A DNA stretch of 64,000 bases from Chloroflexota bacterium (GTDB lineage Bacteria; Chloroflexota; Limnocylindria; Limnocylindrales; CSP1-4). The position numbers were made by a program, and so were the translations under genes. The DNA lies in assembly GCA_003141455.1 (NCBI GenBank), contig PLMA01000044.1, forward strand, positions 179 to 64,178. The letters run 5' to 3'. Positions 43,748 through 54,393 of this stretch are shown here, piece by piece. The notes under the pieces are model-generated. The model was not told the DNA's origin. It saw only the letters and a list, made by a program, of their open reading frames with translations, and did no database searches. Every line of letters starts with the position of its first letter. The first letter of the stretch is position 1.

Positions 43748-44278
43748 TCACGAGCCGGGCCGGCTGCCGAGGTCGAAGGCGTAGGCGATCAGGTCGATCC
43801 CCGGCGCCGGCGAGAAGTCGAGATCGGGCAGGCGCTCGAATCCCATTCGTTCGTAGAGGTGAACGGCGGCCGGCATGAACGCGCCCGTGTGCAGAACCAG
43901 GCGGACGCGGCCGTCGGCGCGGGCACGCTCCAGACACCATTCGGTCAGCCCGCGTCCAATGCCCCGGCCCTGGCGGGCAGGATCGACGGCCAGCATCCGA
44001 ATGCCGGCCTCACCTTCGCGCAGCTCCTCGGAGTACGGGTCGTCCGGGCCGGACACGTACGTCACGCCACCGAGCAGCTCGCCGGCCGGGCCCACGGCAA
44101 CGAGCACGCACGACTTCCGCGCCCGTCCGGCTACGTCCCGCAGCTGGAGGTCGTAGATCTCCTGGTGAGGCATCTCGGCAGGGATGGAGTGGTACGCGGC
44201 CACGGTCAGGTCGGCCAGGGCCTCGTACTCATCGGGGCGGATGGGGCGGATCAGGAACGAGGTCTCGGGCTCGGCCAT
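43748..44278 (-). CDS. GNAT family N-acetyltransferase
   Basis: 176 residues. The acetyl-CoA-binding motif is IRMLAVDPARQGRGIGRGLTEWC, containing the Q/RxxGxG loop (RQGRGIG). It is followed by VRLVLHTGAFMPAAVHLYERMGF, the typical end of the fold. The substrate is unknown. The ATG at 44278 follows a TACGCT box with 6-nt spacing (44290-44285, minus), predicting a leaderless mRNA. It is divergent from a gene that fuses a deacetylase to another GNAT domain. Confidence 0.9.
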   Translation of the reverse strand: MAEPETSFLIRPIRPDEYEALADLTVAAYHSIPAEMPHQEIYDLQLRDVAGRARKSCVLVAVGPAGELLGGVTYVSGPDDPYSEELREGEAGIRMLAVDPARQGRGIGRGLTEWCLERARADGRVRLVLHTGAFMPAAVHLYERMGFERLPDLDFSPAPGIDLIAYAFDLGSRPGS

Positions 44279-44284
44279 GACGGC

Positions 44285-44368: not shown

Positions 44369-46138
44369 ATGGCGGATCGGATCGACAGTGACCCGCTCCT
44401 GGTCTTTGGGCCGCGCTCTCTCACCTACGACTTCGGGTCCGGCCACCCGCTGAGCCCGCGGCGTTTTGGGCCGGGGATAGACCTGCTGCGAGCGGTGGGC
44501 GCCGAGCCGGGGCTGGCCCCCGAACCAGCGGCGGACGGCGAGCTCGAATGGCTGCACGCGGCCGAATACGTCGCGGCCGTACGACGGTTCGCGACCGATC
44601 CGGGCGGGCCTCCGCGGGCAGGCATCGGGCCGGGAGACGATCCGGCGTTCGCTGGGATGCACGACGCGGCGGCGGCCGTAGCCGGCGGCTCGATCCGGGC
44701 CATGGAGGCGATCCTGCGCGGCGAAGTGGAGCACGCGTACCACCCCGGCGGTGGGCTCCACCACGCGATGAGGGCGCGGGCCAGCGGCTTCTGCATCTAC
44801 AACGACGTCGCTCTGGCGATCGCCCGAGCCCGCCGCGACGGCCTGCGCGTCATGTACGTGGACCTGGACGTCCACCACGGCGACGGCGTCCAGGCGCTGC
44901 ACGCCGCCGATCCCGGCGTGCTGACCGTCTCCTTCCACGAGTCGGGCCGCTCGCTCTTCCCGGGGACGGGCTTCGTCGACGAGCTGGGGGAGGGGACCGC
45001 CGCGGGGACCTGCGTGAACGTGCCCCTCGAGCCGCTCTCAGGTCCGGAGGCGTGGCTGGCCGCGGTGCGGGCCGTGGTGCCGGCCCTGGCCGCGGCGTTC
45101 GGTCCGGATGTGGTAGTCAGCCAGCACGGCGCCGACGGCCACGTCTGGGATCCGCTGGCGCACCTCTCCCTGACGACGACGGCGATGGGCGAGGCCGCGC
45201 GGCTCGTCGACCGGATCGCTCACCGGTATGCCGGCGGCCGGTGGCTTTCGACCGGAGGCGGCGGGTACTCCGTGTACCGGGTCGTGCCGCGGGCATGGGC
45301 CCTGACCTGGCTCGCGGCCGCGCACCGGGAGGCGCCTCGGCTGCTCCCCGAGGACTGGCGGGCGCGATGGGCCGGCGACGCTGCGCGTTGGGGCGACTCC
45401 CCATTGCCGACCGGCTTCGAGGACGACCCGGGCCTCCCGGCCGAGCGGGCGGTCAATCCGGCTGCGGCCGAAAGAGACGAGCGAACGGTATTGCTCGTTC
45501 GAACGGTCATGGTGCCGGCCCTGCTGCGGGTTGCCGAGCGCGAGGGTTGGTGGCGGTTCGACGAGCAGGGGCGAAGGTCGTCGACGAGCGCCGTGCCGGC
45601 GGCAGAAGCGCCGCCGGCCGTGGCCGGAGCGGATCCGGCGATCGTCACGCTCACGTCCCAGCTGCTGGATCGAGTGACGCTCGCCCCGCGAACGATTGCC
45701 CCCGCCGACGCGGGCGATGGGCTGGCCCTCTTGCGGGCAGCTGTACGTGGCGGTGCCATCGCCACCGGCGCCGTCACCGGGGAGTGGCTCGTCGGTGTGG
45801 CGCTCGCGAGGCCGCGTCCGCCCCACGGCGAGGATGAGCTGGTGGCCCTGGGCGTGGCCCCGGGCTGGCGGCGCCGCGGCCTTGCCGCGGCCTTGTTACG
45901 GGCCATCGTGGAGGAACAGGACCGCCGTGGCCGGGCACTCGCAGTTCTCCACACGGCCGCGGACCGTGACCCCTTCGAACCACTCTCAAGGGAGCTGCGC
46001 CGGGACGTGGCCGCGCGCCTCCTTCGTTCCGGCGGCTTCAGCACTCGGCCGGCGCCGCCGGACGTGGCCGCCGCGGATCCGTACTCTCTGTCGGCCGTCC
46101 ACCGCCCGGGGCCTCTGCCGGCCCCGCACGACAGGTAG
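44369..46138 (+). CDS. Fusion of class I/II-type histone deacetylase (AcuC-like) and GNAT acetyltransferase
   Basis: 589 residues. The first part (about 1-370) is an arginase-fold, zinc-dependent deacetylase. It has the catalytic His pair in GGGLHHAM (about 128-133), zinc ligands in YVDLDVHHGDGVQ (about 162-174), SQHGADGHVWDPLAHLSLT with the second zinc Asp, and GGGGYS with the transition-state Tyr. A linker of about 60 residues follows. The C-terminal part (about 430-565) is a GNAT domain with VALGVAPGWRRRGLAAALL (acetyl-CoA loop RRRGLA). In Bacillus, AcuC deacetylates and AcuA (GNAT) acetylates acetyl-CoA synthetase; here both activities would sit on one chain. No acsA gene is adjacent. The start has a weak CATCAT -10-like word 6 nt upstream. 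Confidence 0.85.
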   Translation: MADRIDSDPLLVFGPRSLTYDFGSGHPLSPRRFGPGIDLLRAVGAEPGLAPEPAADGELEWLHAAEYVAAVRRFATDPGGPPRAGIGPGDDPAFAGMHDAAAAVAGGSIRAMEAILRGEVEHAYHPGGGLHHAMRARASGFCIYNDVALAIARARRDGLRVMYVDLDVHHGDGVQALHAADPGVLTVSFHESGRSLFPGTGFVDELGEGTAAGTCVNVPLEPLSGPEAWLAAVRAVVPALAAAFGPDVVVSQHGADGHVWDPLAHLSLTTTAMGEAARLVDRIAHRYAGGRWLSTGGGGYSVYRVVPRAWALTWLAAAHREAPRLLPEDWRARWAGDAARWGDSPLPTGFEDDPGLPAERAVNPAAAERDERTVLLVRTVMVPALLRVAEREGWWRFDEQGRRSSTSAVPAAEAPPAVAGADPAIVTLTSQLLDRVTLAPRTIAPADAGDGLALLRAAVRGGAIATGAVTGEWLVGVALARPRPPHGEDELVALGVAPGWRRRGLAAALLRAIVEEQDRRGRALAVLHTAADRDPFEPLSRELRRDVAARLLRSGGFSTRPAPPDVAAADPYSLSAVHRPGPLPAPHDR

Positions 46139-46357: not shown

Positions 46358-46870
46358 ATGGAACGCAGGGATCGCGGGATTTTCGTTCTTCGGGCAGTAG
46401 TCGGGCTGGGCTTCCTCTTTGCCGGCCTCGACAAGTTCTTCATGTGGGCCAGCGGTACGCCGTTCACGGCCGCCGGCTTCCTGAAGTTCGCCACGGGTGG
46501 TGCGTGGCTGGGCAGCGACCCCAAGGCCATCGTCAACCCGACGCACTCCTTCTGGGTCACGCTGGCTGGTAACGCCTCACTGATGGGCGCCATCGACACA
46601 CTCGTCGTCTTCGGTGAGTGCGCGATCGGCATCGCTCTCATCCTCGGCCTGGCAACCCGCTTCGCGGGCGTTGCCGGCGCCACGATGATGGGTCTCTTCT
46701 TCGTCGCCAACTGGAGCTTCGCGAACGGTCCGTTCAACGAGCAGCTCATGTACGGCCTGATCGCCGGAGTGGTCGCCTACGTCGGCGCAGGCGCCTACGC
46801 TCTGGACTCCGTCATCGAGAAGCTGGCCATCACGCAGAGGGTCCCGGTCGCCAAGTACGTACTCGGATAG
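46358..46870 (+). CDS. DoxX/DoxD-family membrane protein
   Basis: 170 residues, four membrane helices (about 8-28, 70-95, 95-120, 130-155). The N-terminal LRAVVGLGFLFAGLDKFF is the DoxX-type signature. A hydrophilic loop of about 45 residues between helices 1 and 2 includes GTPFTAAGFLKFATGG, as in longer DoxX-like proteins. Family members are linked to thiosulfate:quinone reduction (DoxD) or to membrane redox stress complexes. No partner genes are nearby. TACATT at 46276-46281 is a possible -10. A good intrinsic terminator follows. Confidence 0.85.
   Translation: MERRDRGIFVLRAVVGLGFLFAGLDKFFMWASGTPFTAAGFLKFATGGAWLGSDPKAIVNPTHSFWVTLAGNASLMGAIDTLVVFGECAIGIALILGLATRFAGVAGATMMGLFFVANWSFANGPFNEQLMYGLIAGVVAYVGAGAYALDSVIEKLAITQRVPVAKYVLG

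Positions 46871-49680: not shown

Positions 49681-54389
<4,709 letters not shown>

Positions 54390-54393
<4 letters not shown>

Follow-up and report, generated by a model that had tools for sequence, protein, structure and literature searches.

The gene described here lies at positions 44369-46138 on the plus strand of a 64,000-nt window, the whole stretch of DNA from an uncultured Chloroflexota bacterium that was analysed. It comprises 589 codons, with an ATG at 44369, a stop codon ending at 46138 and no internal stops, so that the single uninterrupted frame of the original prediction stands. The product, P0001, is one chain that joins an enzyme removing acetyl groups from proteins to a probable adder of such groups. 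An NCBIfam search with P0001 gave no match over the curated cut-offs; Pfam recognized both of the domains that a profile search had been expected to find, Hist_deacetyl at residues 26-314 (E=1.2e-74) and Acetyltransf_1 at residues 468-532 (E=8.6e-7; 29.7 bits versus a cut-off of 20.7).

From the N-terminus onwards, the protein is made up of an AcuC-type, Zn-dependent deacylase domain (residues ~8-345; 44390-45403), the helical C-terminal tail of AcuC (residues 346-394; 45404-45550; placed by alignment and by a model helix at 364-391), a variable linker (residues 395-424; 45551-45640) and a GNAT domain (residues ~427-565; 45647-46063), all on the plus strand. The AlphaFold model has most of the deacylase above a pLDDT of 85 and is also confident for the AcuC tail, while residues 395-420 are disordered (pLDDT <50) and the GNAT is weakly modelled. 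The HDAC motifs had originally been assigned to the N-terminal 370 residues, and all of these motifs are indeed intact, but the domain itself ends at about residue 345, and residues 346-424 belong to the AcuC tail and the low-confidence linker.

A second, stand-alone GNAT gene of ordinary type (43748-44279, minus strand; Acetyltransf_1, E=9.5e-15) is divergent and adjacent, as had been noted from the outset, and is kept beside the fusion in the source genus and at some other fused loci. Downstream follow a DoxX-like gene (46358-46870, plus strand), which is syntenic in the genus, and an Lhr-type helicase gene (49681-54393, plus strand), a conserved neighbour of both fused and several unfused orthologues that served as synteny anchor; both are named from the appearance of their sequences. 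Neither acs nor a gene for its acetyltransferase is linked to the fused gene within the window.

The catalytic residues of the deacylase are H131/H132 and Y300 and its zinc ligands D167/H169/D256. Across our alignment, H131, H132, D165, D167, H169, D256 and Y300 never vary among the 34 distinct full-length fused sequences. GGGLHH at residues 127-132 and GGGY at residues 297-300 correspond to the foot-pocket motifs XGGLHH and (G/A)GGY, which in a 2024 survey define cluster 2 of the classical deacylases, the AcuC cluster (PMC11532494). By these motifs, which bear out the earlier designation as AcuC-like, the P0001 deacylase is predicted to be of the AcuC type (cluster 2).

A GNAT domain that resembles AcuA

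The original prediction of an intact acetyl-CoA loop in the GNAT half proved correct. The loop, R501-x-x-G504-x-A506 (consensus [RQ]-x-x-G-x-[GA]), is kept in 32 of 33 fused relatives; by position, R501 is found in 34/34 fused rows of the alignment, G504 in 33/34 and A or G at 506 in 34/34. The sequence at L107:1536-1979 is a fused relative without the loop glycine (RRSRLA). The domain furthermore has a motif of its own, [ED]532-R533-D534-P, accompanied by P538 and R544; [AG][ED]RD is present in 33/33 fused relatives, and the [ED]RD motif differs from AcuA and from the other GNATs aligned. Retention of loop and motif is near-perfect among fused relatives down to 33% identity. In pairwise comparisons of fused relatives, which give rough values since several pairs are near silent-site saturation, dN/dS is 0.08-0.19 for the deacylase, 0.12-0.57 for the GNAT and 0.37-1.6 for the linker (residues 395-426), the GNAT being lower than the linker in 10/10 pairs. 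Judged by these rates, the P0001-type GNAT appears to be under purifying selection, and is therefore selectively maintained, though less tightly than the deacylase.

Is the GNAT an AcuA? The isolated model of the domain is weak (pLDDT 58.5), yet has its strands and helices in the usual GNAT order. A Foldseek search with this weak model ranked AcuA (2q04) first, with the whole domain covered at E=7e-3; the top eight also included SsPat, the S. lividans Pat bound to Acs and MtPat, all matches having E>0.001. An alignment of the P0001-type GNAT, represented by 11 rows, to the AcuA domains of AcuC-AcuA fusions (see below) with hhalign extended over 146/157 columns (score 51.7, Prob 94, E=1.4e-7), but an unrelated, ordinary GNAT family used as a control scored 47.2 over 81 columns, little below the value for AcuA. 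In a PDB profile search with the GNAT, the top sequence matches were assorted GNATs, and AcuA came 20th. The AcuA sequences that we compared have in common a WHWD motif after strand 5 and a near-terminal PANxLxxRIG. P0001 lacks this combination: WHWD is replaced by [AG][ED]RDP, and the protein ends in ...GPLPAPHDR, without the C-terminal tail of AcuA, which ends in YMY in two of the AcuA sequences compared. In Bacillus, this tail enters the CoA site of AcsA (PMC11910552). The GNAT half may be called AcuA-like, but it lacks this motif and tail and is not demonstrably an AcuA.

A derivation from the GNAT of Pat was considered as well and is unsupported (hhalign score 36.7). The Pat/PatZ architecture, i.e., a GNAT together with the domains of an ADP-forming acyl-CoA synthetase, is not what Pfam finds in P0001. 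A search for stand-alone copies of the P0001-type GNAT elsewhere in the phylum found none, and matches outside the family belonged to the general GNAT background (E of at least 3e-9).

Recurrence and history of the fusion

The search covered 177 genomes of the class, combined with the locus sequences, and counts were compiled by hand. Among the 107 genomes of the family, 46 have the fused gene, 35 have the deacylase alone, in 5 the gene is cut at contig ends, and 21 are without this orthologue. The presence of the same one-frame fusion in 46 family genomes rules out a chance joining or an assembly artefact, and answers the earlier call to look for the fusion in related genomes. No separate P0001-type GNAT gene adjoins an unfused acuC at the family loci.

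In the deacylase tree, most fused proteins form a group with 100/99 support in which three GNAT-less groups are nested, and one fused protein (L145) is placed near the base of the tree. A topology uniting all of the family's fused proteins in a clade of their own on the AcuC tree was rejected (AU p=0.004). An early gain of the GNAT followed by repeated loss would fit this tree best, with three losses of the GNAT from lineages that kept the deacylase. Ten of the unfused genomes are descendants of the fused clade that have given up the GNAT, and none of them has a Pat, so that a paired writer is not always needed.

In further Chloroflexota families, a search of the phylum turned up AcuC frames that are 650-720 codons long, and 17 such loci were placed on the tree (L030, L039/L191, L175-L188 and L190; L039 and L191 are identical across the aligned part). 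They include two cultured Ktedonobacteria, Ktedonospora formicarum (L030) and Thermosporothrix hazakensis (L039). Their C-terminal domain carries WHWD and PAN-x-L-x-x-R-[IV]-G, in common with the AcuA of the Bacillus type, and these frames can be read as AcuC fused to a recognisable AcuA. They resemble P0001 in being single chains with the deacylase first and the GNAT second, and differ from it in that their GNAT is recognisably AcuA. A test on the tree neither establishes nor rejects a single origin for both kinds (AU p=0.37).

A description of a bacterial deacetylase-GNAT fusion was not found in the open-access literature, although it may already stand in domain-architecture lists, and no mention of fused or multi-domain architectures was found in a survey of bacterial deacylases.

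The acetylation system and the proposed role of the fused protein

The suggested look for acsA elsewhere in the source genome found the gene; its product carries PKTRSGKIMRR, with the same acetylation lysine as Bacillus AcsA. No SIR2/sirtuin gene was found in this genome. Across the family, one sirtuin-bearing genome was counted among the 86 that have this AcuC and five among the 21 that lack it (Fisher p=0.001, uncorrected for phylogeny), and this scarcity fits AcuC being the main deacylase. The source genome also has, on another contig than acuC (L174:1002-3806, contig C32 of G000), a frame of 935 codons that encodes a PatZ-like protein with an N-terminal GNAT followed by CoA-binding, Succ_CoA_lig and ATP-grasp domains.

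A gene for such a PatZ-like GNAT-ACD protein adjoins acuC divergently in 17 of the 35 unfused genomes, but in 0 of the 46 fused ones. At many of the unfused loci with a divergent Pat, acs lies on the other side of acuC. The gene acs adjoins the unfused acuC at ten loci (L014, L018, L020, L122, L124, L125, L126, L133, L137 and L140), and most of these genomes have the PatZ-like gene divergent on the opposite side. The divergent Pat-AcuC pair is also seen in Bacillota (L036, L040, L047), and L031 and L041 show an acuA-acuC or acuA-acuB-acuC arrangement. Since the unfused acuC is often flanked by Pat and acs, the deacylase lineage belongs to the Acs acetylation system. The PatZ-like protein resembles the GNAT half of P0001 in that its GNAT is tied to AcuC, in this case through a divergent gene next to acuC, with acs across from it; it differs in being a separate protein, in that its GNAT precedes the domains of an ADP-forming acyl-CoA synthetase, and in belonging to another GNAT family.

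With respect to the genomes that carry the fusion, those outside the source genus all have Acs (30/30) but hardly ever Pat (1/30), a pattern that points to the fused GNAT as a substitute for Pat. Within the source genus, 10 of 16 fused genomes have an unlinked Pat, and AcsA is missing from 10 of 16 (G036, G038, G039, G042-G044, G046 and G048-G050), absence here meaning no match at E<=1e-150 in incomplete genomes; the Acs and Pat counts are not phylogenetically independent. Given these AcsA-less congeners, AcsA cannot be the sole target.

The closest known parallel is the AcuA/AcuC system (with AcuB) of Bacillus subtilis, which controls AcsA. P0001 resembles it in its GGGLHH/GGGY deacylase, in the GNAT partner and in the RSGKIMR AcsA encoded in the genome. 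In Bacillus, however, the two activities reside on two genes rather than on one polypeptide, AcuA has the WHWD motif and the C-terminal tail that are both missing from the P0001 GNAT, and the window contains neither an acu operon nor a nearby acs.

Taken together, we give an even chance to P0001 being a bifunctional, single-chain lysine-acetylation switch that acts on shared substrates. The N-terminal, zinc-dependent domain would strip acetyl (or short acyl) groups off lysines, and the C-terminal GNAT, held on a flexible linker, would bind acetyl-CoA and acetylate lysines, with the level of acetyl-CoA setting the balance between writing and erasing. The likeliest shared substrates would be acyl-CoA synthetases of the ANL family, with AcsA (at the PKTRSGK lysine) where it is present, and perhaps further proteins; in the family of P0001, the GNAT would probably have replaced the separate Pat that adjoins the unfused AcuC and Acs. 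We thus infer an active GNAT, a lysine acceptor, a substrate shared with the deacylase and the replacement of Pat. The original idea of a single-chain writer/eraser of lysine acetylation is therefore upheld in part: the motifs, the selection, acsA, the scarcity of sirtuins, the genomic surroundings of the unfused orthologues, the recurrence of the fusion and the AcuC-AcuA proteins of other Chloroflexota speak for it, and the missing AcuA motif and tail, the profile score barely above that of the control, the weak GNAT model, the separate PatZ-like protein, the congeners without AcsA and the GNAT-less descendants without Pat speak against it.

The main rival is that the GNAT is a sensor of acetyl-CoA (or CoA) and not an enzyme, and that it modulates or recruits the deacylase. 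Control of AcuC through a partner that binds a nucleotide has a precedent in Bacillus, where AcuB, which binds Ap4A, regulates AcuC (PMC13039410). A sensor would also be in keeping with the lack of a conserved strand-4 glutamate in the GNAT alignment, with the faster evolution of the GNAT as compared to the deacylase, and with its three losses from proteins that retained the deacylase. Against this stand the conservation of loop (32/33) and [ED]RD motif (33/33) among the relatives and the fact that the same position in other Chloroflexota is occupied by a recognisable AcuA, a known acetyltransferase, such that we regard this explanation as rather unlikely. We also see a low probability for both domains being active on different or small-molecule substrates, for instance a polyamine or another acyl-lysine protein, with the fusion merely holding a metabolite cycle together. 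The retention of the fusion in congeners without AcsA, an [ED]RD motif unlike AcuA and other aligned GNATs, and the assorted GNATs that precede AcuA among the PDB matches would agree with this; the deacylase motifs, however, are those of AcuC cluster 2 and not of cluster 4, the polyamine cluster (PMC11532494), and the unfused orthologues adjoin acs and pat.

A variant of the bifunctional reading looks to the deeper past: an old AcuC-AcuA writer/eraser in Chloroflexota may, in the family of P0001, have acquired the new [ED]RDP signature and wider or different targets, survived the loss of AcsA and displaced Pat, which we offer as a tentative scenario, possible but less than probable. Far less credible is that the GNAT is a decaying, functionless remnant of an ancestral AcuC-AcuA fusion, with the separate Pat as the real writer. 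The unlinked Pat in 10 of the 16 fused genomes of the genus and the repeated losses of the GNAT would be in line with decay, but purifying selection on the GNAT, the near-perfect retention of its motifs at identities down to 33% and the absence of any Pat from most other fused genera make this a very improbable outcome.

Reversible lysine acetylation is normally carried out by separate enzymes, and the balance between them is hard to study. A conserved writer and eraser on one chain would come in a fixed 1:1 ratio and would allow direct tests of how the level of acetyl-CoA decides between addition and removal, and such tests become practical in those cultured Ktedonobacteria whose AcuC-AcuA fusion is clear. 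The contrast within the family, with Pat and Acs beside the unfused AcuC versus a fused GNAT with Pat gone, would amount to a natural experiment on the replacement of a writer.

One genome of the source genus (G041; L133 on contig C145) has an unfused acuC flanked by Pat and Acs and, in addition, another Pat, this one of the genus type. This arrangement may stem from horizontal transfer or from contamination, which is estimated at 4% for this genome.
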